This document shows, one piece after another, positions 18,876 to 45,610 of a DNA stretch of 64,000 nt. The notes beneath the pieces were generated by a model. The model searched no databases. It was given only the letters and a program-made list of their open reading frames with translations, and was not told the DNA's origin. The DNA comes from Candidatus Methanoplasma termitum (lineage in GTDB: Archaea; Thermoplasmatota; Thermoplasmata; Methanomassiliicoccales; Methanomethylophilaceae). The stretch covers positions 992,001 through 1,056,000 of the forward strand of contig NZ_CP010070.1 of the NCBI RefSeq assembly GCF_000800805.1, written 5' to 3'. Position 1 is the stretch's first letter, and each line of letters opens with the position of its first letter. The position numbers and the translations under genes were made by a program.

Positions 18876-20279
18876 TCAGCCGATATCATCACCGTCCTGT
18901 TCTTCGAGACCCCTCAGGTCCCTCAATTCCCTAAGCCTGTTCTCAAGCAAAGACTTATCCGGCAGACATAATTGATATGCGGCGACAAGCGCCGGGGACA
19001 TGCTGCGGCTTAATGAATACTCAACGACGGCTTCGTCTTTCCCCGCGCAGATTATCAGCCCGACACTCGGGTTCTCATCGGGCTTTTTTACCTTGCGGTC
19101 GAGAGCCTCCAGATAGAACTCGAGCTGCCCCATGTGCTCGGGTTTGAAGTCGGTGATCTTCAGTTCGACCGCGACAAGGCACGAGAGCCTGCGGTTATAG
19201 AACAGAAGATCGATGTAGAAGTCTGTGTTCCCAACGCGTATGCGGTATTCCTCCCCGACAAATGTAAAATCCGTCCCGAGCTCCAAAATGAAATCGCGCA
19301 TGTTCGCAACGATCGCCTTCCTTATGTCTTTCTCGCTATGGCGTTCGGGAAGATCGAGAAAATCGAGAACATAACCGTCGCGGAAGATCGTCAGACCGGT
19401 ATTCTTCGAGACGAGCGGTTTGTTGATCTCGCCTGATATCAAAGTGCGTTCGAACATGTGGCTTTCGACCTGCCGTTCCAACTCTCTGGAGGAATAATTG
19501 TTGCTGATCGCCAACTGCATATAGAACTCGCGTTCTTCATCTGTCTTGCATCCGAGGATCTTCGTGTTAAGGGTCCAGCTTAATTCTCTCAGCAGTGATG
19601 AGAGTTTTTCGTTGTCTTTGTAGGTCTCATAAAGTTGTTTCATGCGCCAAATGTTCTGCGGAGAAAAGCCTTTGATCTCCGGCCTTTTGACTTGAATATG
19701 CTCGGAAAATTCCTTTACGACAGACTTTCCCCATTCTCCGTTCTTGACTTTATTGCTGACGTACATGCCGATGTTCCAGTATAGATTTATGAGCTCACGG
19801 TTCACCATTCTGAAGGTGTTCTCCCTTGCACGATCTATGATGGAAATCATCTCATCAAAGTCGGAATTCAGACGGATCCTGATATTTCTTCCGTTTTCAT
19901 GCGTGAACGCCTCTTTTTTTACAATCTGATTGTCGGAAATATCACGCTTACTGAACTGTGCCAGCCACTGTTTGAACTGCTCTGTTTTTTGAGACCGTAT
20001 TTGTTGAATTATAAGCAGAGTGTGCTCAGCATCTACGACGTCGGTTAAACGCATCTTTCCATCATCGGCAAGCAGTTTCAACTGTACGATTTTTTCGTAC
20101 GGTTGACCTCCTTCGGCCTTTAGTCTGCGCTTCAAATCGCTCCAATAACGCCGGGGATCGTCTGTCCCCGTTAACGCTTCTACCACATCGACAACCGAAA
20201 GGTACCACTCCTGTTCATCCTCTTTCCAAACTGTACGAATGCGCTTGCCCTCGAACAATTGTACTTTTCTTTCTTCCAT
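18876..20279 (-). CDS. BRO-N domain fused to YhcG/DUF1016 PD-(D/E)xK nuclease
   Basis: The 467-residue protein has two parts. Residues 1-112 match the BRO-N/antirepressor type seen in phages (EQEWYLSVVDVVEALTG, DPRRYWSDLKRRL, KMRLTDVVDAEHTLLIIQ, FKQWLA). Residues about 130-467 are a DUF1016/YhcG protein: helical INLYWNIGMYV segment, then nuclease core FYIDLLFYNRRLSCLVAVELK with an acidic residue and ExK. YhcG proteins usually lack the BRO domain, so the fusion suggests nuclease targeting or regulation by a phage-derived DNA-binding module. Two further YhcG genes lie at 34425-36640. A shared upstream motif sits at 20501-20532. Confidence 0.8.
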   Translation of the reverse strand: MEERKVQLFEGKRIRTVWKEDEQEWYLSVVDVVEALTGTDDPRRYWSDLKRRLKAEGGQPYEKIVQLKLLADDGKMRLTDVVDAEHTLLIIQQIRSQKTEQFKQWLAQFSKRDISDNQIVKKEAFTHENGRNIRIRLNSDFDEMISIIDRARENTFRMVNRELINLYWNIGMYVSNKVKNGEWGKSVVKEFSEHIQVKRPEIKGFSPQNIWRMKQLYETYKDNEKLSSLLRELSWTLNTKILGCKTDEEREFYMQLAISNNYSSRELERQVESHMFERTLISGEINKPLVSKNTGLTIFRDGYVLDFLDLPERHSEKDIRKAIVANMRDFILELGTDFTFVGEEYRIRVGNTDFYIDLLFYNRRLSCLVAVELKITDFKPEHMGQLEFYLEALDRKVKKPDENPSVGLIICAGKDEAVVEYSLSRSMSPALVAAYQLCLPDKSLLENRLRELRDLRGLEEQDGDDIG

Positions 20280-22449: not shown

Positions 22450-22525
22450 GGGCTGGTAGATCAGTGGTTACATCGCTTGCTTTGCAAGCAAGATATCGCG
22501 CGTTCGACTCGCGCCCAGTCCACCA
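22450..22525 (+). tRNA. tRNA-Ala (UGC), CCA encoded
   Basis: The acceptor GGGCTGG pairs with CCAGTCC and includes the G3:U70 alanine identity pair. The anticodon stem CTTGC/GCAAG closes loop TTTGCAA (anticodon UGC); T-loop TTCGACT. Discriminator A and CCA are encoded. The anticodon loop supplies a TTTG followed by CAAGCA, which is matched by the guides of the mini-array just downstream. Confidence 0.94.
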
Positions 22526-22582
22526 TTATTCTACAACACTGCGTTTTTCAGAAAAAGTTTTTCAACCCCCGATCTCCTGCTT

Positions 22583-22714
22583 GATCTACACACAGTAGAA
22601 ATTCTTATTAAATCATAACTCGCGATCTCCTGCTTGATCTACAAATAGTAGAGATTCACTTTTTCGGCGTTTGAACACACGGCTTCATGCTTGATCTACA
22701 AACAGTAGAGATTC
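22583..22714 (-). CRISPR. Mini-array of three diverged Cas12a-type repeats with tRNA-Ala-like guides
   Basis: Read on the minus strand, three 21-nt repeats at 22714-22694, 22657-22637 and 22604-22584 keep the Cas12a pseudoknot stem TCTAC...GTAGA while the 5-nt loop varies (TGTTT, TATTT, TGTGT versus TCTTT in the main array). The following sequences (36, 32 and 30 or more nt) all start CAAGCA; the last two share CAAGCAGGAGATCG. The middle guide matches tRNA-Ala at 22485-22504 in 17 of 20 positions (mismatches at 7, 10 and 17), immediately after a TTTG PAM in the correct orientation. The first repeat overlaps the CARF stop codon, so these elements form the 3' end of that mRNA and are likely substrates for Cas12a processing. 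A T-run after the third guide (about 22557) may end the transcript. Confidence 0.8.
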
Positions 22715-23549
22715 ATTTCGGTGAATAATAGAAAGTATCCAACACAATCTTTCCCTCGTCCGTGAGGAAATATCTTTTCTTGAATTCGTCTCTATACACC
22801 CATCCGTTTGATATCCATTTCTCTACAAAATCGCGGAAATAATACACCGAGTCGGATCTTGTAATCTTGACCTTTCCTTTGTTGTCAAAGACGACCTCCC
22901 CTCCTTCTCTTCGCCAAATATCAAGGTCCTTCAGAACCCTTATTACTTCTGGGCCTTTGGTAGAGAGTTTCTTCTTATTCATTTCATCCAATGCCCTGAG
23001 CCCAAGGATCACATTACGATCTGGTATTGGCATGGAATATTTCGGAAGACACTTAGGGTCGCGGACGGATTCGGTAAGGCCCACAGGCTTGTCATTCAGA
23101 TCATAGAATGTTCCGCGGACATCTTTTACTTTATACTCCACAGTACTGACCGAGAAGGGTATTGTTCCCGGCATCATCATGGATGCGATCGCAGCAGCGG
23201 CCGCATACTCTGACGTGCCCGCAGAAATGTTTACAAAAATGTCCGATGGTTCATCCTTCTTATTCTCTTCTTCGATGATGCTGAGCACCGTTCTCAGCAT
23301 GATGGTGAAGTCGTTAACATTCTCCATGTGTCTGATTATATCAATGGGAACTGTTGCGTTTTCCGATATCAGTTCACATACGCGTTCACAGAATTCCATG
23401 TATATCTTGCCGTTTTCGCTTTGAGGGTCCTTTATGTAATGTATTAGATGAACTTTTGTTGCGTCGTAGAATTTTACTGGATCTGTGATCTTCACAGTCT
23501 CGAATGTAACGCACGAGATCACTATTCTTTCTCTCCGTCCCGACACCAT
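22713..23549 (-). CDS. CARF-domain protein with C-terminal winged helix, putative CRISPR regulator
   Basis: The 278-residue protein has an N-terminal Rossmann-like CARF domain: IVISCVTFETVKITDP, a middle DIFVNISAGTSEYAAAAAIA loop that is the typical ligand-binding segment, and VSTVEY. Residues about 185-278 form a winged helix (MNKKKLSTKGPEVIRVLKDL ... FVEKWISNGWVYRD..KKRYFLTDEGK). This architecture resembles Csa3/DUF6293-type transcription regulators. The start MVSGRRER is chosen because a TATA-like GTATATAAC lies about 25 nt upstream (leaderless); the longer frame would cross into the cas12a promoter. It is divergent from cas12a by 117 bp, suggesting it controls the locus. No type III signalling gene is present to supply cyclic oligoadenylate. 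Confidence 0.75.
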   Translation of the reverse strand: MVSGRRERIVISCVTFETVKITDPVKFYDATKVHLIHYIKDPQSENGKIYMEFCERVCELISENATVPIDIIRHMENVNDFTIMLRTVLSIIEEENKKDEPSDIFVNISAGTSEYAAAAAIASMMMPGTIPFSVSTVEYKVKDVRGTFYDLNDKPVGLTESVRDPKCLPKYSMPIPDRNVILGLRALDEMNKKKLSTKGPEVIRVLKDLDIWRREGGEVVFDNKGKVKITRSDSVYYFRDFVEKWISNGWVYRDEFKKRYFLTDEGKIVLDTFYYSPK

Positions 23550-23564
23550 GTGTGGTGGATTGAC

Positions 23565-23650
23565 ATAGTTATATACAAATATTCTGTTACTACAGACATA
23601 TGTTGAAATAATTGAAAAAATCGTATTTCCCCAAGTAATAAATATATACA
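23565..23650. promoter_or_regulatory. Divergent promoter between CARF gene and cas12a
   Basis: Plus strand: AAATATATA at about 23640-23648 lies 19-27 nt before the cas12a ATG, implying leaderless mRNA. Minus strand: GTATATAAC at about 23568-23577 lies 19-28 nt before the CARF ATG. No obvious palindromic operator is seen between them. Confidence 0.55.
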
Positions 23651-23666
23651 CTTAGTTTCTCTTTCC

Positions 23667-26600
23667 ATGAACAACTATGATGAGTTTACCAAACTGTACC
23701 CAATACAGAAAACGATAAGGTTCGAATTGAAGCCGCAGGGAAGAACGATGGAACACCTCGAAACATTCAACTTTTTCGAAGAGGACAGGGATAGAGCGGA
23801 GAAATATAAGATTTTAAAGGAAGCAATCGACGAGTATCATAAGAAGTTTATAGACGAACATCTAACAAATATGTCTCTTGACTGGAATTCTTTAAAACAG
23901 ATTTCAGAGAAATACTATAAGAGTAGAGAGGAAAAAGACAAGAAAGTTTTTCTGTCAGAACAGAAACGCATGAGGCAAGAGATAGTTTCTGAGTTCAAAA
24001 AAGACGATCGGTTTAAAGATCTTTTTTCAAAAAAATTGTTTTCTGAACTTCTCAAGGAAGAGATTTACAAAAAAGGAAACCATCAGGAAATTGACGCATT
24101 GAAAAGTTTTGATAAATTCTCAGGCTATTTTATTGGGTTGCATGAGAACCGAAAAAATATGTATTCTGACGGAGACGAGATCACGGCTATCTCTAACCGT
24201 ATTGTAAATGAGAATTTCCCGAAGTTCCTCGACAACCTTCAGAAATATCAGGAAGCTCGTAAAAAATATCCAGAGTGGATCATTAAGGCAGAATCTGCTT
24301 TAGTTGCACATAATATCAAGATGGATGAAGTCTTTTCCTTAGAGTATTTCAACAAAGTCCTGAATCAAGAAGGAATACAGAGATACAATCTCGCCCTAGG
24401 TGGCTATGTGACCAAAAGTGGTGAGAAAATGATGGGGCTTAATGATGCACTTAATCTTGCCCATCAAAGTGAAAAAAGCAGCAAGGGAAGGATACACATG
24501 ACTCCACTCTTCAAACAGATTCTGAGTGAAAAAGAGTCCTTTTCTTATATACCAGATGTTTTTACAGAAGACTCTCAACTTTTACCATCCATTGGTGGGT
24601 TCTTTGCACAAATAGAAAATGATAAGGACGGGAATATTTTTGACAGAGCATTAGAATTGATATCTTCTTATGCAGAATACGATACAGAAAGGATATATAT
24701 CAGGCAAGCGGACATAAACAGAGTTTCTAATGTTATTTTCGGGGAGTGGGGAACACTGGGGGGGTTAATGAGGGAATACAAAGCAGACTCTATCAACGAC
24801 ATCAATTTGGAGAGAACATGCAAGAAGGTAGACAAGTGGCTCGACTCAAAGGAGTTTGCGTTATCAGATGTATTAGAGGCAATAAAAAGAACCGGCAATA
24901 ATGATGCTTTTAATGAATATATCTCAAAGATGCGCACTGCCAGGGAAAAGATTGACGCTGCAAGAAAGGAAATGAAATTCATTTCGGAAAAAATATCTGG
25001 AGACGAAGAATCGATCCATATTATCAAAACCTTATTGGACTCGGTGCAACAGTTTTTACATTTTTTCAATTTATTCAAAGCGCGTCAGGACATTCCTCTT
25101 GATGGAGCATTCTATGCGGAGTTCGATGAAGTCCATAGCAAACTGTTTGCTATTGTTCCGTTGTATAATAAGGTTAGGAACTATCTTACGAAAAATAACC
25201 TTAACACGAAAAAGATAAAGCTAAACTTCAAGAATCCAACTCTGGCAAACGGATGGGATCAAAACAAGGTATATGACTACGCCTCCTTAATCTTTCTCCG
25301 CGATGGTAATTATTATCTCGGAATAATAAATCCAAAAAGGAAAAAGAATATTAAATTCGAACAAGGGTCTGGAAATGGCCCATTCTACCGGAAGATGGTG
25401 TACAAACAAATTCCAGGGCCGAACAAGAACTTACCAAGAGTCTTCCTCACATCTACGAAAGGCAAAAAAGAGTACAAGCCGTCAAAGGAGATAATAGAAG
25501 GATATGAAGCGGACAAACACATAAGAGGAGATAAATTCGATCTGGATTTCTGTCATAAGCTGATAGACTTCTTCAAGGAATCCATCGAGAAGCACAAGGA
25601 CTGGAGTAAGTTCAACTTCTATTTCTCTCCAACTGAATCATATGGAGACATCAGCGAATTCTATCTGGATGTAGAAAAACAGGGATACCGGATGCATTTT
25701 GAGAATATTTCTGCCGAGACGATTGATGAGTATGTCGAAAAGGGGGACTTATTCCTCTTCCAGATATACAACAAAGACTTTGTGAAAGCGGCAACCGGAA
25801 AAAAAGATATGCACACCATTTATTGGAACGCGGCATTCTCGCCCGAGAACCTTCAGGATGTGGTAGTGAAACTGAACGGTGAAGCAGAACTTTTCTACAG
25901 AGACAAGAGCGACATCAAGGAGATAGTTCACAGGGAGGGAGAGATACTGGTCAATCGTACCTACAACGGCAGGACACCTGTGCCTGACAAGATCCACAAA
26001 AAATTAACAGATTATCATAATGGCCGTACCAAAGATCTCGGAGAAGCAAAAGAATACCTCGATAAGGTCAGATATTTCAAAGCGCACTACGACATCACAA
26101 AGGATCGCAGATACCTGAATGATAAAATATACTTCCATGTGCCTCTGACATTGAATTTCAAAGCAAACGGGAAGAAGAATCTCAATAAGATGGTAATTGA
26201 AAAGTTCCTCTCGGACGAAAAAGCGCATATTATTGGGATTGATCGCGGGGAAAGGAATCTTCTTTACTATTCTATCATTGACAGGTCAGGTAAAATAATC
26301 GATCAACAGAGCCTCAACGTCATCGATGGATTCGATTACCGAGAGAAACTGAATCAGAGGGAGATCGAGATGAAGGATGCCAGACAAAGCTGGAATGCTA
26401 TCGGGAAGATAAAGGACCTCAAGGAAGGGTATCTTTCAAAAGCGGTCCACGAAATTACCAAGATGGCGATACAATACAATGCCATTGTTGTCATGGAGGA
26501 ACTCAATTATGGGTTCAAACGCGGACGTTTCAAAGTTGAGAAGCAGATATATCAGAAATTCGAGAATATGCTGATTGACAAGATGAATTATCTGGTATTC

Positions 26601-27383
26601 AAGGATGCTCCGGATGAAAGTCCGGGAGGAGTCCTCAATGCATATCAGCTTACTAATCCGCTTGAAAGTTTCGCTAAACTTGGGAAACAGACAGGAATTC
26701 TTTTCTATGTTCCGGCAGCCTATACTTCGAAGATAGATCCGACGACCGGGTTTGTCAATCTTTTCAATACTTCAAGTAAAACGAACGCACAGGAAAGAAA
26801 AGAATTCTTGCAAAAATTCGAGTCGATCTCCTATTCCGCTAAAGACGGAGGAATATTCGCATTCGCGTTCGATTATCGGAAGTTCGGAACGTCAAAAACA
26901 GACCACAAAAATGTATGGACCGCATACACGAACGGGGAAAGGATGAGGTACATAAAAGAGAAAAAACGCAACGAACTGTTCGACCCCTCGAAGGAGATCA
27001 AAGAGGCTCTCACTTCATCAGGAATCAAATATGACGGCGGACAGAACATATTGCCAGATATCCTGAGGAGCAACAATAACGGTCTGATCTACACAATGTA
27101 TTCCTCTTTCATAGCGGCCATTCAAATGAGGGTCTATGACGGGAAAGAAGACTATATCATCTCGCCGATAAAGAACAGCAAGGGAGAGTTCTTCAGGACC
27201 GATCCGAAAAGAAGGGAACTTCCGATAGACGCGGATGCGAACGGCGCGTATAACATTGCTCTCAGGGGCGAATTGACGATGCGTGCGATAGCGGAGAAGT
27301 TCGATCCGGACTCGGAAAAGATGGCGAAGCTAGAACTGAAACATAAGGACTGGTTCGAATTCATGCAGACAAGGGGGGATTGA
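23667..27383 (+). CDS. cas12a: CRISPR effector nuclease Cas12a (Cpf1)
   Basis: The 1,238-residue effector opens with the family signature YPIQKTIRFELKPQGRT. The split RuvC site is intact: D859 in GIDRGERNL, E944 in VVMEELNYGFKRGR, D1190 in DADANGAYN, with the bridge and Nuc region between (MYSSFIAAIQMRVYDGKED). The crRNA-processing WED segment YFHVPLTLNFK and PAM-proximal NPKRKKN are present. It would process its own pre-crRNA and cut DNA with a 5' T-rich PAM. Sequence closely recalls the Cas12a of 'Ca. Methanoplasma termitum' (memory, not searched). Its stop overlaps the cas4 start by one base. Length and motifs suggest a functional protein. Confidence 0.97.
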   Translation: MNNYDEFTKLYPIQKTIRFELKPQGRTMEHLETFNFFEEDRDRAEKYKILKEAIDEYHKKFIDEHLTNMSLDWNSLKQISEKYYKSREEKDKKVFLSEQKRMRQEIVSEFKKDDRFKDLFSKKLFSELLKEEIYKKGNHQEIDALKSFDKFSGYFIGLHENRKNMYSDGDEITAISNRIVNENFPKFLDNLQKYQEARKKYPEWIIKAESALVAHNIKMDEVFSLEYFNKVLNQEGIQRYNLALGGYVTKSGEKMMGLNDALNLAHQSEKSSKGRIHMTPLFKQILSEKESFSYIPDVFTEDSQLLPSIGGFFAQIENDKDGNIFDRALELISSYAEYDTERIYIRQADINRVSNVIFGEWGTLGGLMREYKADSINDINLERTCKKVDKWLDSKEFALSDVLEAIKRTGNNDAFNEYISKMRTAREKIDAARKEMKFISEKISGDEESIHIIKTLLDSVQQFLHFFNLFKARQDIPLDGAFYAEFDEVHSKLFAIVPLYNKVRNYLTKNNLNTKKIKLNFKNPTLANGWDQNKVYDYASLIFLRDGNYYLGIINPKRKKNIKFEQGSGNGPFYRKMVYKQIPGPNKNLPRVFLTSTKGKKEYKPSKEIIEGYEADKHIRGDKFDLDFCHKLIDFFKESIEKHKDWSKFNFYFSPTESYGDISEFYLDVEKQGYRMHFENISAETIDEYVEKGDLFLFQIYNKDFVKAATGKKDMHTIYWNAAFSPENLQDVVVKLNGEAELFYRDKSDIKEIVHREGEILVNRTYNGRTPVPDKIHKKLTDYHNGRTKDLGEAKEYLDKVRYFKAHYDITKDRRYLNDKIYFHVPLTLNFKANGKKNLNKMVIEKFLSDEKAHIIGIDRGERNLLYYSIIDRSGKIIDQQSLNVIDGFDYREKLNQREIEMKDARQSWNAIGKIKDLKEGYLSKAVHEITKMAIQYNAIVVMEELNYGFKRGRFKVEKQIYQKFENMLIDKMNYLVFKDAPDESPGGVLNAYQLTNPLESFAKLGKQTGILFYVPAAYTSKIDPTTGFVNLFNTSSKTNAQERKEFLQKFESISYSAKDGGIFAFAFDYRKFGTSKTDHKNVWTAYTNGERMRYIKEKKRNELFDPSKEIKEALTSSGIKYDGGQNILPDILRSNNNGLIYTMYSSFIAAIQMRVYDGKEDYIISPIKNSKGEFFRTDPKRRELPIDADANGAYNIALRGELTMRAIAEKFDPDSEKMAKLELKHKDWFEFMQTRGD

Positions 27384-27964
27384 TGACCGAGAATGCGATT
27401 TTGCTATCGAACATAAACGACTTTTTATTCTGTCCAGTCTCGATTTATTTCCATAACCTAATGGGAGACTCGGACAGAATGATATCCCAATCAAGATGTC
27501 AGATCAACGGAACACATGCGCATGAAACAATAGAGGATGGGCGGTACACATCAAGAAAAGATGTATTGCAGGGAATGGAAGTCTATTGCGAAAAGTATGG
27601 TTTGATTGGGAAAATAGATCTCTTGGACATAAAGAAAAAAATGTTGACAGAGCGGAAGAAAAAGATATCTCGTCTGTACGATGGGCAGATATTCCAAGTA
27701 TATGGTCAATATTTTGCCCTGAAAGAGATGGGATACGAGATTGAAAAGATCCGTGTATACAGTATGGACGACAATAAAAGCTATGACATCACCGTTCCGG
27801 AGGAAGACCCAGTCATGACGCACAAGTTTGAAGAAACGATCCTAGATATGCACACTTTCAATCCCGATGATTACGTCCAGACGAATCCCTGCAAATGTTC
27901 TAATTGCATATATGAACCAATGTGCGGGAGTTCTAGTCTGGAGGTAAAACATGATGTCAGTTGA
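27383..27964 (+). CDS. cas4: Cas4 adaptation nuclease
   Basis: The 193-residue RecB-like protein has an N-terminal Cys in FLFCPVSIYFH, the acidic GKIDLLDI core, an ERKKK motif, QIFQVYGQYFALKEMGYE and a C-terminal three-Cys cluster CKCSNCIYEPMC completing a 4Fe-4S site. It trims pre-spacers and selects PAM-proximal ends. The start is the ATG overlapping the cas12a stop (TGATG). It overlaps cas1 by 14 bp. Confidence 0.92.
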   Translation: MTENAILLSNINDFLFCPVSIYFHNLMGDSDRMISQSRCQINGTHAHETIEDGRYTSRKDVLQGMEVYCEKYGLIGKIDLLDIKKKMLTERKKKISRLYDGQIFQVYGQYFALKEMGYEIEKIRVYSMDDNKSYDITVPEEDPVMTHKFEETILDMHTFNPDDYVQTNPCKCSNCIYEPMCGSSSLEVKHDVS

Positions 27965-28922
27965 CACATTCCAGAAAAAACAGGCGATCTTCGTTTTTAC
28001 AAGAGACGGCGACAAAATCTCATTTAGCAATGACAATCTTGTGGTAAAGAATGGGGATGAAGTGCGTCTTCAGTCCACATGTTATCGAATCTTTGCTCTT
28101 TTCATTGTGGGAGACGTGACGATAACGTCAGGTATAATCCAAAGATCAAGAAAGTTCGGTTTCCCAATATTTTTGATGTCTGGTTCATTCCGTACCTATG
28201 ACATCATCGGCCACAAGACCGAGGGCAATTATGTTCTGAGGAAGATACAATATGACCACGATGGTCTCGACATAGCGAAACACATCGTGGAGAATAAGAT
28301 CCGCAATCAGATTGATACATTAAAATTACAAAGATGGAAGGATAACGGGATGAGAGCTGACATATCGTCGCTTGAGCGATATGCAGAATCCGTGAGGAAC
28401 TTCGATGACGACTTCAGAGGACTCATGGGCATCGAAGGATCAGCTTCAAGGATATATTTCAGGAACAATTTCAGCATGGAGGCATGGACAGGCAGGAGGC
28501 CACAGATTAAGGCTGATTTTATCAACAGCACCTTGGACATAGGATATACGATCCTTTTCAACTTCGTTGATGCAATGCTGGAGCTATACGGATTCGATAC
28601 TTACAAAGGCGTATATCATAGAGAATTCTACATGCGAAAGTCGCTTGTTTGCGATATGGTGGAACCATTCCGCCCGCTTATAGATTGGCAGGTTAGGAAG
28701 GCTGTGAACTTAGGGCAATGCAAACCAGAGGACTTTAACGTTTCAAACGGACGATTTTTGTTAGATATTTCAAAGAACAAGGATTATGTGGGGTTTTTGA
28801 TGAAGCCACTGTTAGAGTCAAAAGAGCAGATCTTTGTTTATTTCCAAGACTTCTATCGTGCAATAATGAAACATAAACCAATTTCTGATTTTCCAATCTT
28901 CAAGATTTTGGAGGAAGAATGA
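27951..28922 (+). CDS. cas1: Cas1 integrase
   Basis: The 323-residue protein has an N-terminal beta domain and a helical catalytic domain with GIEGSASRIYF (metal-binding Glu), KGVYHREFYMRKSLVCDMVEPFRP (His and Asp region) and QVRKAV. With Cas2 it inserts spacers at the leader end of the array. Its 3' end overlaps cas2 by 4 bp. Confidence 0.95.
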   Translation: MMSVDTFQKKQAIFVFTRDGDKISFSNDNLVVKNGDEVRLQSTCYRIFALFIVGDVTITSGIIQRSRKFGFPIFLMSGSFRTYDIIGHKTEGNYVLRKIQYDHDGLDIAKHIVENKIRNQIDTLKLQRWKDNGMRADISSLERYAESVRNFDDDFRGLMGIEGSASRIYFRNNFSMEAWTGRRPQIKADFINSTLDIGYTILFNFVDAMLELYGFDTYKGVYHREFYMRKSLVCDMVEPFRPLIDWQVRKAVNLGQCKPEDFNVSNGRFLLDISKNKDYVGFLMKPLLESKEQIFVYFQDFYRAIMKHKPISDFPIFKILEEE

Positions 28923-29191
28923 TCCTTATCAGTTATGATATCCAGGATGACAAACTGCGCACAAAATTCTCAAAATACATAAAGAGATTCGGGCACAGGC
29001 TGCAGTATTCTGTATATGAGATCGACAATTCTGAAAGAATACTCGATAATATTATCACAGATATCAACAACAATTTCATGGACAAATTTTCTGAAGCAGA
29101 TTCGGTACTAATCATTAAACTTTCAAAAACATGTGATGTGATAAGGATGGGTTATGCGATACATGAGGAATCAGACATTGTAATCGTCTGA
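28919..29191 (+). CDS. cas2: Cas2
   Basis: The 90-residue ferredoxin-fold protein begins MILISYDIQDDKLRTKF, with the usual early Asp, and has RLQYSVYEID in the second strand. It is the structural partner of Cas1. It is the last cas gene, 134 bp before the first repeat. Confidence 0.93.
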   Translation: MILISYDIQDDKLRTKFSKYIKRFGHRLQYSVYEIDNSERILDNIITDINNNFMDKFSEADSVLIIKLSKTCDVIRMGYAIHEESDIVIV

Positions 29192-29324
29192 TGCAAACCC
29201 CGGTCTTAATTTTTCATTTCGTCAGTTTTCAAATAATTTGTACAATCAAAAGCGTTATATTGTTATTTGATGTTGTCATATATGTAAAAAGCGGGTCTGA
29301 ATAGACCAAAAACCCACAATGAGT
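29192..29324 (+). promoter_or_regulatory. CRISPR leader
   Basis: This AT-rich gap lies between cas2 and repeat 1. A TATA-like CATATATG sits at about 29279-29286 and a short hairpin GGTCT/AGACC at about 29294-29308. Its position at the non-degenerate end of the array marks it as the leader. Confidence 0.6.
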
Positions 29325-32300
29325 CTCAAAACTCATTCGAATCTCTACTCTTTGTAGATAGGCGCAGGACCTGGGCTGTAATCCCTCAAAACTCATTCGA
29401 ATCTCTACTCTTTGTAGATAAATTGTTCAAAAGGATCTTATGAAGCTCAAAACTCATTCGAATCTCTACTCTTTGTAGATTCCATCATTGCGGTATAATA
29501 GATACTCTCAAAACTCATTCGAATCTCTACTCTTTGTAGATAATTTAGAGATAATAAGAAAAAACTCTCAAAACTCATTCGAATCTCTACTCTTTGTAGA
29601 TGTGACCTGTGCACCAGGACTCATGGCTCAAAACTCATTCGAATCTCTACTCTTTGTAGATGTGTTAGCAATATCTATCACCTGTAGGCTCAAAACTCAT
29701 TCGAATCTCTACTCTTTGTAGATATAAGGTTGAAACTATAAATTCTGAAACTCAAAACTCATTCGAATCTCTACTCTTTGTAGATAAACCTAACCAGCCG
29801 ATACTCAGGCGCTCAAAACTCATTCGAATCTCTACTCTTTGTAGATGTACACTCAGGGTGTCTGGCTCTACTCTCAAAACTCATTCGAATCTCTACTCTT
29901 TGTAGATAGCTGAAACCTGATTAGTAACGGCCGTCTCAAAACTCATTCGAATCTCTACTCTTTGTAGATGGATTGATAAAAGTTGTATCTATTGGCTCAA
30001 AACTCATTCGAATCTCTACTCTTTGTAGATGTCTTAGGTGATAAAATGAACAACGACTCAAAACTCATTCGAATCTCTACTCTTTGTAGATGGCTGATAA
30101 CCCTGAATGCGATGAGAGACTCAAAACTCATTCGAATCTCTACTCTTTGTAGATAAGAGTTGAATCCCGACCTGAAGGTCCTCAAAACTCATTCGAATCT
30201 CTACTCTTTGTAGATACTGAGATTGCGCCTGCGCCGTGGATCTCAAAACTCATTCGAATCTCTACTCTTTGTAGATGCCCACAGTTTTACAAGTCCGATA
30301 TCTCAAAACTCATTCGAATCTCTACTCTTTGTAGATGACAAATTAAACAACATGAAAGAGCAGCTCAAAACTCATTCGAATCTCTACTCTTTGTAGATTA
30401 AATGCGCCATGCGTCCCCGCTGGACTCAAAACTCATTCGAATCTCTACTCTTTGTAGATAACACGGCGTTGATTGCGTCCGCGTCCCTCAAAACTCATTC
30501 GAATCTCTACTCTTTGTAGATGGCACAGTTATGGATAATAACCTTCCGCTCAAAACTCATTCGAATCTCTACTCTTTGTAGATGTACTGCACACCCGACA
30601 GCGTGGTACCTCAAAACTCATTCGAATCTCTACTCTTTGTAGATAATGCAGTTAAGCTATTAGCTTAACTCTCAAAACTCATTCGAATCTCTACTCTTTG
30701 TAGATGAGGGATGGACTACTTGCCCAGACGTAACTCAAAACTCATTCGAATCTCTACTCTTTGTAGATGTAATGTGTCAAGCACATACTATGCGTCTCAA
30801 AACTCATTCGAATCTCTACTCTTTGTAGATTAGATATACTCGAAGTCTCGAACATGCTCAAAACTCATTCGAATCTCTACTCTTTGTAGATAGATCAACT
30901 TCGATCATCCGAGGATCTCAAAACTCATTCGAATCTCTACTCTTTGTAGATAACGGAGAACGAAAGATCCTGTCCTCCCTCAAAACTCATTCGAATCTCT
31001 ACTCTTTGTAGATTAACATAACCTTCGCTTCCTGTATCGACTCAAAACTCATTCGAATCTCTACTCTTTGTAGATACGTTCACTAATCTCACTGGCTGTA
31101 AGCTCAAAACTCATTCGAATCTCTACTCTTTGTAGATTTTGTGAACGAAATAACTGCCACATCCTCAAAACTCATTCGAATCTCTACTCTTTGTAGATGT
31201 ATGAGAACCTTGTGATTGGGGTATCTCAAAACTCATTCGAATCTCTACTCTTTGTAGATTCGGAGCTCCAGGGCGGAATGTGCGCGCTCAAAACTCATTC
31301 GAATCTCTACTCTTTGTAGATTATACGGTATCGGATAACGCAGGATCTCAAAACTCATTCGAATCTCTACTCTTTGTAGATAGTGCGCCCTCAAGTACGG
31401 AAAATAGCTCAAAACTCATTCGAATCTCTACTCTTTGTAGATAAGTAGTCAAGGACTTTTGTAACGGCCTCAAAACTCATTCGAATCTCTACTCTTTGTA
31501 GATTCTCAAGATACTGGTTCTGATCGCAGCTCAAAACTCATTCGAATCTCTACTCTTTGTAGATAGTATCGCCGAGTAGTCCCAATTCAACCTCAAAACT
31601 CATTCGAATCTCTACTCTTTGTAGATAAATACACACCAACAGAGTTTTAACCTCAAAACTCATTCGAATCTCTACTCTTTGTAGATTAATAAGAAGGAAC
31701 GCCTAAGTTGGAACTCAAAACTCATTCGAATCTCTACTCTTTGTAGATTAACAGCAACCAAGGCCATCACAGTATACTCAAAACTCATTCGAATCTCTAC
31801 TCTTTGTAGATTCAGGTAATGTTCCTTCTCAGACAGTCTCAAAACTCATTCGAATCTCTACTCTTTGTAGATGACGCCATTCTCGGTGCGTATCGACTCT
31901 CAAAACTCATTCGAATCTCTACTCTTTGTAGATCAAGATACACACCCGGTGTGTAAGGAGCTCAAAACTCATTCGAATCTCTACTCTTTGTAGATTGTAA
32001 GAAAAGGGGGTGGTTCGGTGCTGCTCAAAACTCATTCGAATCTCTACTCTTTGTAGATCTCACTCAGCTAACGAACCTCACAGACTCAAAACTCATTCGA
32101 ATCTCTACTCTTTGTAGATCACAACAGATCGGCCTTGATGCATGGGCTCAAAACTCATTCGAATCTCTACTCTTTGTAGATAACACGTCCATAATCTTAA
32201 CCAGATACTCAAAACTCATTCGAATCTCTACTCTTTGTAGATAAGTCCGCCCATAACCTTTCTTTGTCCTCAAAACTCATTCGAATCTCTACTCTTTGTA

Positions 32301-32662
32301 GATGTCATGGATACGAGGCTTGATTGTGCCTCAAAACTCATTCGAATCTCTACTCTTTGTAGATAAATTCGGTGATGGACAGGGCACGGCGCTCAAAACT
32401 CATTCGAATCTCTACTCTTTGTAGATAGTTATCATTTCGCGCTCAAACTCTTCTCAAAACTCATTCGAATCTCTACTCTTTGTAGATAATATATATACGC
32501 GCGAGCAACTGGCCTCAAAACTCATTCGAATCTCTACTCTTTGTAGATGGCAGCAATCCGCGGATGAGCCCAAGCTCAAAACTCATTCGAATCTCTACTC
32601 TTTGTAGATTCACTAGTGGCAGGGCACAATTTGGAGAAAAAACTCAAAACAAATCTCTTAAT
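29325..32662 (+). CRISPR. Type V-A CRISPR array, 54 repeats plus a degenerate terminal repeat
   Basis: By reading each unit I count 54 copies of a 35-nt repeat that begins CTCAAAACTCATTCG and ends AATCTCTACTCTTTGTAGAT, spaced about 60-61 bp, giving spacers of about 25-27 nt. The repeat hairpin TCTAC/GTAGA with loop TCTTT is the Cas12a handle. The final element at about 32643-32662 (CTCAAAAC then AATCTCTTA) is a decayed repeat lacking its middle, as expected at the leader-distal end. The full repeats look invariant and the array long, implying active adaptation. Confidence 0.98.
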
Positions 32663-34424: not shown

Positions 34425-35546
34425 TCATTCATCATCGTCCTTTGCCTCATAATAGTGATCGATCTGTTTGGGAACATCACTGCGTGGCATCCCCTTACGC
34501 CGTTCGAGCCGCTCTTTTGCTTCGGCCGCTATCTCCTTTATCTTGCGCTCGAACTCCTCCTTTGGCGGAAGGTCTGTCCAGTATTCCGCCACCCCGATGC
34601 CGGCTTTATCCATTTCAAGCAATTCCACCTTTTTGCGGTTCGCCGATGTGCAGAGGATAAGTCCTATCGGCTGTTCCTCGCCTTCCTTCCGCTCATACCG
34701 GTTGAGCCATTTCAGATATAACAGCATCTGACCCATATATTCCGCCTTGAATCTTCCTATCTTCACCTCGACTGCGACCAACCTCTTATGTTTCCGATGG
34801 AAGAAAAGCAGATCCAGAACTATATCCTCACCATCTATTATCATCCGTTTTTGGCGTTCTACGAAAGTAAAACCGTTGCCGAATTCGAGTATGAATGATT
34901 CCAGCCCGGCCAGGATGGCTTTTTCGAGATCCGCTTCGTGAAAATTCTCTTTCAAATCGAAAATATCCAACAGATACGGATCCTTGAATACATTGAACGG
35001 AATGACGGATTGCTCCGATATCTCGGTGTTTGCTATCTCCTGTCTTTCATATGCTTTGCGGGATATCTGGCGACGGAGTTCTTGTACCCCATAGTTCCGT
35101 GCGATGGCGTCGTTTGCGTAATACAGCCGCGCCTCATCTGATTTCAACGGCAACAACTCTATAAAGTGAGACCAGCTCAATTTTGCCGACAGCGCCGGCA
35201 AAATCTCTGGGTTAGCAAAACGCTCCGCAAAAAGCATCATTCTATAAAGGTTGCGTTCGGTAAAACTCTGTCCATAGGTTGTTACCAATTTTGCCGACAG
35301 CGTCGTCAAAATCTTTTTACCGTAATCAGCACGCTTGTTTTCGAGTATGGTTGAATTGATATATTGTCCGACCTCCCAGAACATCATTGTCACTTCTTGA
35401 TTTACATGATCATATGCTCTGCGTTTCCGATGCTCGATTATTGCTGCGATGTTTTCGAAAAGGTCGTTCTCGTCTATTTGCTGACCGGCGTTGTCCGGCA
35501 ACTGCGTGCCGGACTCCTGAGGAGCTTTCGAGCGTCTTCCGCTCAT
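34425..35546 (-). CDS. YhcG/DUF1016 PD-(D/E)xK nuclease family protein
   Basis: The 373-residue protein has an N-terminal helical region (HVNQEVTMMFWEVGQYIN, LSAKLSWSHFIELL) and a C-terminal nuclease core (DIVLDLLFFHRKHKRLVAVEVKIG) followed by LILCTSANRKKVE, then a basic tail. YhcG family members are linked to restriction islands and recombination-like cleavage. Its ATG overlaps the stop of the upstream YhcG paralogue, so they are coupled. Confidence 0.82.
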   Translation of the reverse strand: MSGRRSKAPQESGTQLPDNAGQQIDENDLFENIAAIIEHRKRRAYDHVNQEVTMMFWEVGQYINSTILENKRADYGKKILTTLSAKLVTTYGQSFTERNLYRMMLFAERFANPEILPALSAKLSWSHFIELLPLKSDEARLYYANDAIARNYGVQELRRQISRKAYERQEIANTEISEQSVIPFNVFKDPYLLDIFDLKENFHEADLEKAILAGLESFILEFGNGFTFVERQKRMIIDGEDIVLDLLFFHRKHKRLVAVEVKIGRFKAEYMGQMLLYLKWLNRYERKEGEEQPIGLILCTSANRKKVELLEMDKAGIGVAEYWTDLPPKEEFERKIKEIAAEAKERLERRKGMPRSDVPKQIDHYYEAKDDDE

Positions 35547-36640
35547 GGTTCATCACCTCCTTCGCCGGACTCTTCATTCAAGAACCTCTCCCGCTCGAAA
35601 AGCCTCCTTTCCGACTCTATCTCCATGCAAAGCTCTTCTTCGGACGGTATGTACATTTTGTACTTCGAAGCGAAAACCTGTGTGTTGTCCTCGGGAAGGG
35701 TGTACCTTACGATCGTATCGCTCTTGCTGGCACATAATATTATCCCTATGGGCTTGTTGTCGCCTTCCTCCATCAGCTCTCTGGTGTAGTAGTTGACATA
35801 CATCTGCATCTGGCCGATATCCTGGTGCGTTAGTTCGCCCGTCTTGAGATCGATAAGAACAAAGCACTTCAACCGATAGTTGTAGAACACCAAGTCAATG
35901 TAGAAATGGCGACCGTCCAAACTTATCCTTTTCTGGCGTGCCTCAAAAGTAAAGCCGTTACCGAGTTCCAACAAAAACTTCTGCATGTGTGTTATCAAAG
36001 CTTTTTCGAGGGTCGATTCGCGAAAGCCGGAATTGTGATCCAACCCGGCGAACTCCAGAACACTCGGATCTTTGATTATGTCCTCTGCCGTTCTCCCTGG
36101 TTCCTTCTTTATTATCTCGTCTCTTATCTCTTCCTTGTTCCGGCTTGCCAGAACACGTTCGTAGCAGAAGCTGTTGATCTGTCTCTCAAGCTGTCTGGTG
36201 CTCCAGTTGCCGTTTGCGCATTCTTCTAAGTAGTAGTTGCGGGCCCGGGGGTTTTCTACACGAAGGATCAACCGATAGTGGGTCCACGACAATTCGGAAC
36301 GCACTGCGTTCCAGTTTGGCAACGTCGAATAGAACTGCCGCATATAACGTAAGTTGCGATCGTCAAACCCTCTCCCGTATTCTGCCGTTAACTGCTTTGA
36401 CAGACTTTTGATAAGTCCGTCACCGTATGCGGCACGCTCTGCTCCGCCTTGTTTTTCAACAATGAGCCGACCGATTTTCCAATATGCTTCGACCATGAAA
36501 GAGTTCAAAGCCGCATATGCTCTGCCTCTGGAACTGTTCAGAATTTCTCTCACTTCTTTGAAGAGATTCTCTTCGATGATCTCTTCTGGTACGTTCGCCG
36601 CTATTTGCGGCTCGTCCTTATCTCTGATTATTTTTGCCAT
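35543..36640 (-). CDS. YhcG/DUF1016 PD-(D/E)xK nuclease family protein, upstream partner
   Basis: This is a 365-residue paralogue of the 34425 gene. Core: HFYIDLVFYNYRLKCFVLIDLKTG, with DxK in place of ExK, then PIGIILCASKSD. The helical part has LSWTHYRLILRVENPRARNYYLEE. The start MAKIIRD is chosen because GGAG lies just upstream. Tandem unlike YhcG copies suggest a heteromeric complex. The shared motif at 36811-36844 lies about 170 nt upstream. Confidence 0.82.
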   Translation of the reverse strand: MAKIIRDKDEPQIAANVPEEIIEENLFKEVREILNSSRGRAYAALNSFMVEAYWKIGRLIVEKQGGAERAAYGDGLIKSLSKQLTAEYGRGFDDRNLRYMRQFYSTLPNWNAVRSELSWTHYRLILRVENPRARNYYLEECANGNWSTRQLERQINSFCYERVLASRNKEEIRDEIIKKEPGRTAEDIIKDPSVLEFAGLDHNSGFRESTLEKALITHMQKFLLELGNGFTFEARQKRISLDGRHFYIDLVFYNYRLKCFVLIDLKTGELTHQDIGQMQMYVNYYTRELMEEGDNKPIGIILCASKSDTIVRYTLPEDNTQVFASKYKMYIPSEEELCMEIESERRLFERERFLNEESGEGGDEP

Positions 36641-36795
36641 AGTTCGCACTCCTTTTTTGCAAGTGCTTACATATCGGAGATCGCTGCGTTTGCCGCAGCA
36701 TCCCCGCCTATGGCTGAGTTCTAAATGTCCTTACGGCTCATTGAAACAGCTGGTACAGAGACCCGTTTACTCGCTGCATTTTTACATGGAAAGGA

Positions 36796-39806: not shown

Positions 39807-41009
39807 TCATTCTTCTGCTCTCCTGTGTTTGATCTTTGGGTCAGAATGTTTTTTTTCACATTCCTTACAAACATCCTTCCATGGTGAAAGGAACCCTTTC
39901 TTGTACTGACGAGTGCAATCCATGCAAATGAACTTCCCGCAGTCTGAGCATGTGTGTGTTGTCCTCGCCAGAGCCTGACAATAATCACAATAAGTAAGTC
40001 CTTCTGTTCTGATATTCTTTGCTAATAAGGTGAACTTATCATTTTTGTTCTCTATGAATGTCACATCTGATTTCGTTCCAAAGGTCTCGAACTCAATGTT
40101 AGCAACGTAATATTTTAGTAGATACTCAAAGGATACTTTCACGTTCTTCGGCTTCGGTGAGCAGGTCTTTGTGTAATGACTGCCGTTGTTCCCAAAATAA
40201 GAGACATCTTCTGTGAGTCTCTGAATCATCCTTTCTCTGATGTCCAATTCGATCTGCTTTATATTCAGCTGAGCCGGCATAGGCCCCTCAATCTTATCTC
40301 CATCTGATAGCTTAATGGTAATGCCGGATGCCTCTGGTATATTCTCTAACGTGTTGCTATCCAGAAGAACGTTGAACTCTTGATCTAATCTTTTTATCAC
40401 TGTGCCATTCGACATCTTAAAATCTTCGTGCGCTGAGATGTGTAAGAATACGCCATATTTCACGACCCTATCATTTTTTATTATTTTTAGATTCGGTTCG
40501 ACCTTTGTCCTTCCTGAATTTCGGACGTTTATGAAATTGGATGTAATAATGCTCTTAATCTCATTGGGGTCATATGGTGCCAGCGTGCAAATCGTTATGT
40601 TATCCGAGGTGGGATTCAGCAGGATTCTGTACCCATATTTGGAACCAATTGACTTCAGATCATAGAAATCCATTGTTTCAATGTGGAGTCTATTCTCATT
40701 GATGTGATTTATCGCATCATCGCTGAATCCGCCGGTGCATATAAGAAGACCCTTTTTCACGCCATCTGTCATCATTGCCGAGTGTAATTTTTGTACAACG
40801 GGCCTGCCTATTGGTTTGTGGTGATGTTTGCATTCAACGTACATCACATCGGTTGGAGAGAAACGGACGATCAGATCCTTTCCGCCATCGCCGACAAGCG
40901 GTACATCTTCCACTTCTGCTTTATAGTGTCCTTGCAATAGTTTTTGACATAATTTCTCAAACCCCTCACCATCATAGTCGCAGAGGTATATGTTCTTCAA
41001 GTCATCCAT
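39807..41009 (-). CDS. Mrr-like restriction endonuclease with C-terminal zinc-finger (B-box-like) region
   Basis: The protein is about 400 residues. The N-terminus is a PD-(D/E)xK Mrr-type domain: FEKLCQKLLQGHYKAEVEDV, GDGGKDLIVRF, MYVECKHHHKPIGRPVVQKL, GLLICTGGFS. The middle is beta-rich and unassigned. The C-terminus has paired Cys/His fingers (TYCDYCQALARTTHTCSDCG, CMDCTRQ, CKECEKKH), resembling a B-box. It probably cuts foreign or modified DNA. The start at 41009 is preferred for a GGTGA just upstream; 41021 is the alternative. Confidence 0.75.
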   Translation of the reverse strand: MDDLKNIYLCDYDGEGFEKLCQKLLQGHYKAEVEDVPLVGDGGKDLIVRFSPTDVMYVECKHHHKPIGRPVVQKLHSAMMTDGVKKGLLICTGGFSDDAINHINENRLHIETMDFYDLKSIGSKYGYRILLNPTSDNITICTLAPYDPNEIKSIITSNFINVRNSGRTKVEPNLKIIKNDRVVKYGVFLHISAHEDFKMSNGTVIKRLDQEFNVLLDSNTLENIPEASGITIKLSDGDKIEGPMPAQLNIKQIELDIRERMIQRLTEDVSYFGNNGSHYTKTCSPKPKNVKVSFEYLLKYYVANIEFETFGTKSDVTFIENKNDKFTLLAKNIRTEGLTYCDYCQALARTTHTCSDCGKFICMDCTRQYKKGFLSPWKDVCKECEKKHSDPKIKHRRAEE

Positions 41010-41249
41010 TGAGTTCACCATAATTTCATTGAAATGTGTTTAGAGGAGACTAACCATTCTGGGCAGACGTCTCACTAATTAAATAAACTCCTCATATTTA
41101 TCTACTTTTTGGATGTCGGTATAGATAAGGCCTTAATATCAAACAGATGAGATTTCTTGGAGGTTCGTATTTTTTGCTGTGCTTTCCTTTGCTCATATCG
41201 GTGCCAATGTATATTTATATTTCAAAAATAATATTTAGATGGGTGTAAA

Positions 41250-44527: not shown

Positions 44528-45610
44528 TCATTCAAAAAAGGATCTGCTGCTGTTTTTAAGTGCACCCTCCCCCTTGTTCAACTTCCTAAACACGAACAAA
44601 TGCTCATGCATTGTGAGCAAGAAACTTGAATTGGAATATTTTCCAAGGTTTCTATCGCTTTCACAATTCCACTCTTTTTTTATTATATCCTCTTTAAGGA
44701 CAAATCCTTCTTTCAGGAAATCGAACATAAGTCTCGCTGTTATCGGGACGAAGTGGCTTCTGTTGTGAGTGTCACCCATTAATATTGAGCAGTATGCCCC
44801 AGGCTTCAAGACCCTGTGGAATTCTTTGATCGCCTTTTTGAATTCTGAGAAAAATACATCGTAGTCATTAATCTGAGAAAGATCCCCATCAACTGATGGC
44901 GCATACTTTATTATGTTCGCATAAGGAGGATGAGTTGCGATTAGATCTATTGACTCGTCAGCGATCTTGTCCAAGTTTCTAACATCCCCGATAAATGTTC
45001 TATGAACAGTTTTTGGAATTTGTTTTTTCATTGATTCTGGGAGTTCGAGTCTGTTTCTTGTAATAGAAATTGCTCCTTGGTTGATATCGATTGATATCGA
45101 GTTTCTTCCAGTGAGCATACATTCAACCGGCGTTGTTCCGCCACCCACCATAGGATCAAGTACAAGATCTCCTGGTTTAGAATAAAGTTCAATAATATTT
45201 CTCACAACGCGCGGAGACCAATTACCGCGATATTGTGGCGTATGTGATGCCCAATCGCCGCGGTCGGGGAAACTCCAAACTGTTGTTCGTTCTAATTTGA
45301 AATCTGATGGTTGAATCCCCGAGATTTTTCCTTTTTTGTAAATTTCCCAAGGAACGATCTTTTTGTTTTCAACCACCACGTCTTCTGCCTTTGAATCGAG
45401 TATCTCTATCATAGGCTGGTATACTATATCCTTTGAAATATAAAGGTATAGACTACATGTAGTAACGTAGCCGAATCCCGGCAACTTCATTATATCAAAA
45501 AAGTCTGAATTCCTCAGATCTTCTATGGTATTGTAGCCTGCTTCCTTTAGCATTTTCTCCTTCACAGGACCAATGCCCGGTATCCCTAAACCAACGTGCT
45601 TTTTACTCAA
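44528..45610 (-). CDS. Beta-class DNA methyltransferase with N-terminal helix-hairpin-helix
   Basis: This is a 360-residue protein. Residues 1-55 form two HhH-like motifs (GLGIPGIGPVKEKMLKEAG, DIMKLPGFG). The methylase part has LVLDPMVGGGTTPVECML (SAM site after the catalytic-first order is unclear) and THPPYANI, with the usual Asp/Ser replaced by His, then HRVLKPGAYCSILMGDTH. It could be the second methylase of the DpnII set or an independent enzyme. It is convergent with dam and divergent from the endonuclease. Confidence 0.78.
   Translation of the reverse strand: MSKKHVGLGIPGIGPVKEKMLKEAGYNTIEDLRNSDFFDIMKLPGFGYVTTCSLYLYISKDIVYQPMIEILDSKAEDVVVENKKIVPWEIYKKGKISGIQPSDFKLERTTVWSFPDRGDWASHTPQYRGNWSPRVVRNIIELYSKPGDLVLDPMVGGGTTPVECMLTGRNSISIDINQGAISITRNRLELPESMKKQIPKTVHRTFIGDVRNLDKIADESIDLIATHPPYANIIKYAPSVDGDLSQINDYDVFFSEFKKAIKEFHRVLKPGAYCSILMGDTHNRSHFVPITARLMFDFLKEGFVLKEDIIKKEWNCESDRNLGKYSNSSFLLTMHEHLFVFRKLNKGEGALKNSSRSFFE

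Follow-up and report, generated by a model that had tools for sequence, protein, structure and literature searches.

A crRNA-like mini-array beside a Methanoplasma Cas12a locus carries guides that resemble alleles of the adjacent tRNA-Ala(UGC) gene

The delocalised crRNAs of the CAST V-K and I-F systems are encoded outside the array, retain only a partial repeat and target an adjacent tRNA gene (PMC11656645, PMC8730458). A second kind of off-array RNA, represented by CreA of the CreTA modules and by CreR, joins a degenerate repeat to a guide that partially matches a neighbouring native gene (PMC12737573). Finally, viruses carry mini-CRISPR arrays, which Medvedeva et al. describe (PMC6858448) as short arrays with host-type repeats directed against related genomes.

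Here, we describe a mini-array in the archaeon Candidatus Methanoplasma termitum that resembles each of these systems in part. Like the CAST crRNAs, its units lie off the main array, keep part of the repeat and are directed at an adjacent tRNA gene; like CreA and CreR, they match a neighbouring native gene only partially; and like the virus-borne arrays, they form a short array with repeats of the host type. The analysis covers a stretch of 64,000 nucleotides, referred to as the window, which corresponds to G000:C1:992001-1056000, where G000 is the window's own genome.

The mini-array, its apparent target and its setting

The minus strand of the window at 22564-22714 contains three units, each consisting of a 21-nt Cas12a crRNA handle followed by a guide that begins with CAAGCA. 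The handles (GAATYTCTACTNTKTGTAGAT) occupy 22714-22694, 22657-22637 and 22604-22584, and the 5-bp stem is intact in every one; the coordinates thus bear out the original prediction, which had placed three Cas12a repeats with intact stems and a common guide start on this strand beside tRNA-Ala. Handle 1 (GAATCTCTACTGTTTGTAGAT, 22694-22714), whose first bases are overlapped by the stop codon (TGA) of a CARF gene, has a stem that folds with -4.7 kcal/mol, similar to the main-array handle, and leads into guide 1 (CAAGCATGAAGCCGTGTGTT, 22674-22693), which matches the resident tRNA at 14 of 20 positions and in which the tRNA likeness extends to nt 24. Handles 2 (GAATCTCTACTATTTGTAGAT, 22637-22657) and 3 (GAATTTCTACTGTGTGTAGAT, 22584-22604) were verified by a sequence check. 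Guide 2 (CAAGCAGGAGATCGCGAGTT, 22617-22636) agrees with the resident tRNA at 17 of 20 positions, with mismatches at 7, 10 and 17, and guide 3 (CAAGCAGGAGATCGGGGGTT, 22564-22583) at 16 of 20, with mismatches at 7, 10, 15 and 17, before running into a T-rich stretch, a T-run resembling a terminator. The match of the middle guide to 22485-22504 directly after TTTG, and the disagreement of all three guides with the tRNA at positions 7 and 10, were likewise as predicted.

The handles comprise exactly the part of the repeat that is kept in mature Cas12a crRNA, the repeat having lost its 5' half (CTCAAAACTCATTC). They have the form of a type V-A crRNA, AAUYUCUACUNNNNGUAGAU with a UCUAC/GUAGA stem, located directly 5' of the guide. 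A handle followed by CAAGCA occurs exactly three times in the window against zero expected, and a PAM followed by a match to the guides occurs once, also against zero expected. A chance origin of the mini-array was rejected on these two expectations, together with its conservation in relatives. These observations support the reading, made from sequence, of the three units as functional-looking crRNA units aimed at tRNA-Ala(UGC).

The apparent target, a tRNA-Ala(UGC) gene with an encoded CCA, lies on the plus strand at 22450-22525, convergent with the adjoining mini-array. It was identified by ARAGORN and by a whole-genome tRNA scan (62.2 bits) in which all tRNAs were typed, and it is single copy in the 1,488,669-base, single-contig genome; as the sole tRNA with this anticodon, it is presumably essential. 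An Rfam gathering scan of the window omitted the 22450-22525 tRNA, probably a filter effect, as the genome search with the same family scored 62.2 bits. Within the gene, a TTTG PAM at 22481-22484 (tRNA positions 32-35) precedes the 20-nt protospacer at 22485-22504 (tRNA positions 36-55) on the plus strand. This TTTV-type PAM is on the correct strand, and TTTG is also present in the tRNA genes of two relatives, G056 and G069. The PAM covers anticodon bases U34 and G35 and the seed begins at anticodon base C36, so that no mutational escape is available to the target across these three bases, and a site of this kind fits an adversary better than routine control. In the whole genome, only tRNA-Ala(UGC) and two of the mini-array units lie within three mismatches of the PAM-plus-guide consensus. 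The shorter string PAM plus CAAGCA is found in the window at tRNA-Ala(UGC) and at one other site, 46017; near the locus it is found in the tRNA alone.

Directly upstream of the mini-array and on the same strand is a gene for a CARF protein with an HFX_2341-like N-terminal domain (22713-23651, minus strand; Pfam PF19810, 5.8e-13; PADLOC CARF3, 4.4e-123), and the two are therefore probably co-transcribed. The probable start of the CARF protein is an internal Met near 23549, and the protein is 77% identical in G056. A second CARF homologue, about 40% identical and split over two reading stretches, is found at G000:C1:895286-896141, and similar CARF genes occur in G058, G060 and G062 with no Cas12a nearby. 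A stem-loop near a CARF gene of G062 was considered and dropped, as it is inside coding sequence. Divergent from the CARF gene is a full-length Cas12a gene (23667-27383, plus strand; TIGR04330, 1205 bits; Cas12a relatives in the PDB), in which a motif check found the RuvC motifs GIDRGER, MEELN and DADANGAYN all present. It is followed on the plus strand by cas4, cas1 and cas2 of type V-A (27380-29191) and by the main CRISPR array (29315-32654), whose repeat was read from the sequence as CTCAAAACTCATTCGAATCTCTACTCTTTGTAGAT. Three genes for DUF1016/YhcG PD-(D/E)XK nucleases, one of them with a BRO N-terminal domain (PADLOC candidate PDC-S02), lie on both sides of the Cas12a locus (18876-20279, 34425-35546 and 35543-36649, all on the minus strand), and genes for a Mrr-type restriction endonuclease and a DNA methylase-like protein are located near it (39807-41021 and 44528-45610, minus strand). 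With the DUF1016/YhcG nucleases and the Mrr-type enzyme, the flanks of the Cas12a locus form a defence island.

Recurrence in Methanoplasma and resemblance to tRNA-Ala(UGC) alleles

Among 147 genomes of the order, Cas12a is present in four and the guide pattern in three, all of them Methanoplasma. Comparison of the locus across the order, which the original prediction had proposed as a check, revealed that the layout recurs: of 16 further Methanoplasma genomes searched, G056 and G069 have guides of this type next to their tRNA-Ala(UGC). The order tRNA-Ala, one unit, CARF, cas12a is the same in G056 as in the window, with guide CAAGCAGGAAGTCGCGCGTG set against its own tRNA CAAGCAGGAAGCCGGGGGTT, and the whole Cas12a locus and array are situated between tRNA-Ala and alaS. 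In several other genera, tRNA-Ala(UGC) adjoins shikimate (aro) genes and is close to alaS. G069 has two units with full-length repeats adjoining its own tRNA-Ala, at a contig end. No mini-array follows the CARF gene in G032 and G099, the other two Cas12a genomes, and the tRNA of G032 is of the consensus type. When one genome for each of 84,980 species was scanned, the guide pattern was found only in a Methanoplasma bin, which holds the public copy of the G069 contig, and in one chance match, in Flavobacteria, which is inside a sulfatase-like gene. The recurrence in two related species argues that the mini-array guides are real and kept for a purpose.

Between G000 and G056 the divergence of the locus is ordinary and vertical-like, with about 84-86% identity in cas1 and 85% in the neighbouring aro gene. 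The tRNA gene encodes its CCA in three of three carriers and in none of four congeners without a mini-array. Sequence patterns did not find tRNA-Ala(UGC) in ten of the 17 Methanoplasma genomes (G060-G066, G068, G070 and G071), whose assemblies are incomplete; most of these have another tRNA-Ala, and the missing gene may reflect an assembly gap, an intron or strong divergence of the tRNA. In the Cas12a gene of G032 (G032:C5:30960-34638, locus L065), the reading frame contains a TAG and shifts near residue 980. TAG can be read as pyrrolysine by these archaea, but the shift points to gene decay or an assembly error.

The guides were compared with an allele pool made up of the 25 nt that follow the PAM in each of 75 further genomes of the family, in which the consensus target allele is CAAGCAAGAAGTCGCGAGTT. 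At pool-invariant positions, the six guides of the three carriers retain the tRNA base in 73 of 78 cells within the first 20 nt and in 11 of 24 at nt 21-25 (Fisher P about 1e-6), and 22 of the 26 mismatches between guides and their own tRNA fall on the seven naturally variable sites (binomial P about 3e-7); both tests treat the six guides as independent, and because the guides are related these P values are optimistic. Conservation of the guides stops at nt 20, the length that Cas12a reads. The retention of invariant positions to nt 20, together with the placement of mismatches at variable sites, leads us to read the guides as tRNA-Ala(UGC) alleles. Each guide differs from its own tRNA at three to six positions, mostly located at sites where the tRNA tolerates change, and the number of matched bases before the first mismatch is 6-11 in five guides and 3 in the remaining one. 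Ordinary spacer acquisition would not repeat one protospacer register six times, so that the units probably share an ancestor, with selection to keep matching tRNA-Ala.

Whether the guides are nearer to the resident allele or to foreign ones was addressed in the same pool. The resident tRNAs are neither especially near to nor especially far from the guides (the fraction of alleles that are closer ranges from 0.05 to 1.0) and are no outliers, and for six of six guides the nearest foreign allele is closer than the resident. The G056 guide matches the allele of G078, of another genus, at 19 of 20 positions with the sole mismatch at nt 20, and guide 2 of G069 matches that of G038, also of another genus, at 19 of 20 with a mismatch in the seed at position 4. 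An exact cognate allele for the three window guides was not found in the pool, where the best candidates have two to three mismatches. Guides 2 and 3 of the window share an A at position 11 with the resident tRNA. Among 400 genomes of the class no other has this state in its tRNA, which links the two guides to the resident lineage and not to foreign alleles; guide 1 of G069 also carries A11. The G056 guide shares an 11-nt PAM-proximal start (CAAGCAGGAAG) with its own tRNA, and this start was found in one other pool genome. The shared start, too, ties a guide to the resident lineage, and the 19-of-20 foreign matches point outward.

The three mini-array genomes have the three most divergent tRNA-Ala(UGC) genes of 15 compared (chance 1/455), with mean pairwise distances of 10.0, 10.4 and 6.9 versus 3.4-6.5 in the others; in the tRNA-Ala(CGC) and tRNA-Ala(GGC) genes of the carriers, such an excess is mostly absent. 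The divergence of the resident tRNA extends outside the target and includes the D-arm, and therefore does not reflect escape from the guides only. A T at guide position 10 is seen in the tRNAs of two carriers. It was dropped as a state private to mini-array genomes, as G112 and G115, which have no mini-array, also have T.

Explanations for guides directed at a resident tRNA gene

We tentatively favour a model in which the mini-array arms the neighbouring Cas12a against tRNA-Ala(UGC) genes while the linked, mismatched copy is spared, a natural form of allele exclusion that might be paraphrased as 'cleave other alleles, keep mine'. Transcription continuing from the CARF gene, followed by processing by Cas12a, would yield the guide RNAs; well-matched tRNA-Ala(UGC) alleles would be cut and the mismatched resident allele would not; and the benefit would be the retention or spread of the Cas12a locus. 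Incoming DNA from strains without the locus could be cut before it is able to replace the locus and, conversely, the unmodified tRNA gene of a recipient could be cut and repaired from an incoming copy, with the locus carried along. Allele exclusion is favoured because the adjacency of guides and tRNA needs explaining, because the site is one that no target can abandon and because the differences fall where a tRNA can afford them. The recurrence beside tRNA-Ala(UGC), the 19-of-20 foreign matches, the unusual divergence of the carriers' tRNAs and the intact Cas12a motifs also speak for it. It is weakened by guides that are not significantly farther from the resident tRNA than from other alleles, by the failure to find an exact cognate for the window guides, by a tRNA divergence that reaches the D-arm, by T10 in two genomes that have no mini-array, by the private A11 and by the vertical-like divergence of the locus. 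A precedent is provided by archaeal mating, in which CRISPR cutting biases recombination towards the CRISPR-bearing strain (PMC12814878). The fuller proposal, that the locus is a natural cleave-and-rescue element that resists loss and can spread because it cuts foreign alleles in the anticodon arm while its own copy is cut-resistant, is more doubtful.

The main rival to allele exclusion is Cre-like repression, in which partially matching crRNAs hold Cas12a on the resident tRNA-Ala(UGC) without cutting and lower its transcription, for autoregulation, growth control or Cas12a addiction. CreA and CreR RNAs do use partial guide-target matches, and CreR has been reported for type V-A (PMC12737573); the 17-of-20 match of guide 2 next to a PAM, the private A11 and the 11-nt match in G056 are all compatible with such a role, as is the identity of the guides with the coding strand, through which they would pair with the template strand. 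The target, however, is the tRNA body rather than a promoter, regulation would not require conservation to nt 20, and no toxin gene adjoins the mini-array, an extra tRNA-Ala not being an obvious toxin. Furthermore, all window guides mismatch at positions 7 and 10 and so fall short of the approximately 17 matched PAM-proximal bases needed for stable binding by AsCas12a (PMC6050341), a requirement that may not apply to the Cas12a of the window. We regard Cre-like repression as somewhat unlikely. Of the earlier interpretation, the crRNA units aimed at tRNA-Ala and their recurrent layout stand; CreA/CreR-like binding without cutting is not established, since the guides are no closer to the resident than to foreign alleles. 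It is also unlikely that the guides defend against mobile elements bearing tRNA-Ala(UGC) sequence, be it a complete tRNA or half of an attachment site, the host gene being shielded by its mismatches. The 3' halves of tRNA genes are common integration targets in archaea, the guides resemble several different tRNA-Ala alleles, and the locus lies among defence genes (DUF1016 nucleases and Mrr). Nevertheless, a viral source of the guides was rejected: in the 49 viral contigs with the PAM and target pattern, nearly all matches fall within complete tRNA genes on phage-like contigs, we saw none that could be assigned to these archaea, and no mini-array was found in a scan of viral contigs. The family genomes listed contain no second TGC tRNA or 3'-half copy, and defence against elements would leave unexplained both the adjacency to the sole target tRNA and the six guides in one register.

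RNA-guided homing, by which the Cas12a locus would insert beside tRNA-Ala(UGC) at a cut made by its own crRNAs, would fit an anatomy like that of the CAST V-K and I-F crRNAs, the position of the G056 locus between tRNA-Ala and alaS, two genes that lie close together in several other genera, and the encoded CCA seen in the carriers but not in the four congeners. We nonetheless consider it improbable, as no transposase is present among the neighbouring genes scanned, there is no target-site duplication, and inheritance of the locus in the three carriers may have been vertical, judging from the identities of cas1 and aro between G000 and G056. Least probable is a relic, an old self-targeting mini-array under weak selection only and with no present function. 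The loss of the repeat 5' halves in the window and the three to six mismatches of the guides to the resident tRNA would fit decay, but decay would not halt at the borders of the mature crRNA, and three species have conserved the handles, the seeds and those guide positions that are invariant in the tRNA, though not the flanking bases. The original prediction had also allowed that the copies are chance remnants of tRNA-integrating elements. This was rejected, since handle and guide join exactly, the repeat is reduced to its mature-crRNA part, conservation ends at nt 20 and the tRNA 3' end is not duplicated: an integrated element would be bounded by an att direct repeat, and the window contains no second copy of any 14-mer from the tRNA 3' half.

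The mini-array among described systems

The locus departs from the CAST V-K and I-F systems (PMC11656645, PMC8730458) in having a full Cas12a with nuclease motifs, no transposase that we could find, three guides instead of one and an archaeal host. Instead of the Tn7-like transposase and nuclease-dead Cas12k that characterise CAST, the Cas12a motifs are intact and the neighbours scanned include no transposase. It departs from CreA and CreR (PMC12737573) in that the guides address a single-copy tRNA gene within its body rather than the promoter of a toxin or cas gene, tRNA identity is kept to nt 20 and no toxin gene is present. A CreTA module has an adjacent toxin gene and a guide matching its promoter; here the guides match the tRNA body, and no toxin-type gene was seen beside the mini-array for the suggested toxin-antitoxin link in the CreTA sense. 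CreR guides match the promoter of their own cas operon, and no PAM plus CAAGCA occurs at the cas12a/CARF promoter. Compared with the virus-borne mini-CRISPR arrays (PMC6858448), the units described here are chromosomal, lie beside their own effector and address one tRNA protospacer in one register.

Guides of crRNA type that link a Cas12a locus to an essential tRNA gene next to it have not, as far as we could find, been reported. Repression of the tRNA, if true, would to our knowledge be the first case of a tRNA gene under crRNA-steered control. Allele-specific cutting, if true, would offer a new answer to the persistence of CRISPR loci despite their frequent loss. Engineered cleave-and-rescue elements direct a nuclease at an essential, conserved gene and carry, linked to it, a version of that gene that resists cutting. 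The mini-array locus differs from these in being natural and in that its cleavage step is putative; should its cutting prove allele-specific, it would be a natural counterpart of the synthetic cleave-and-rescue designs.
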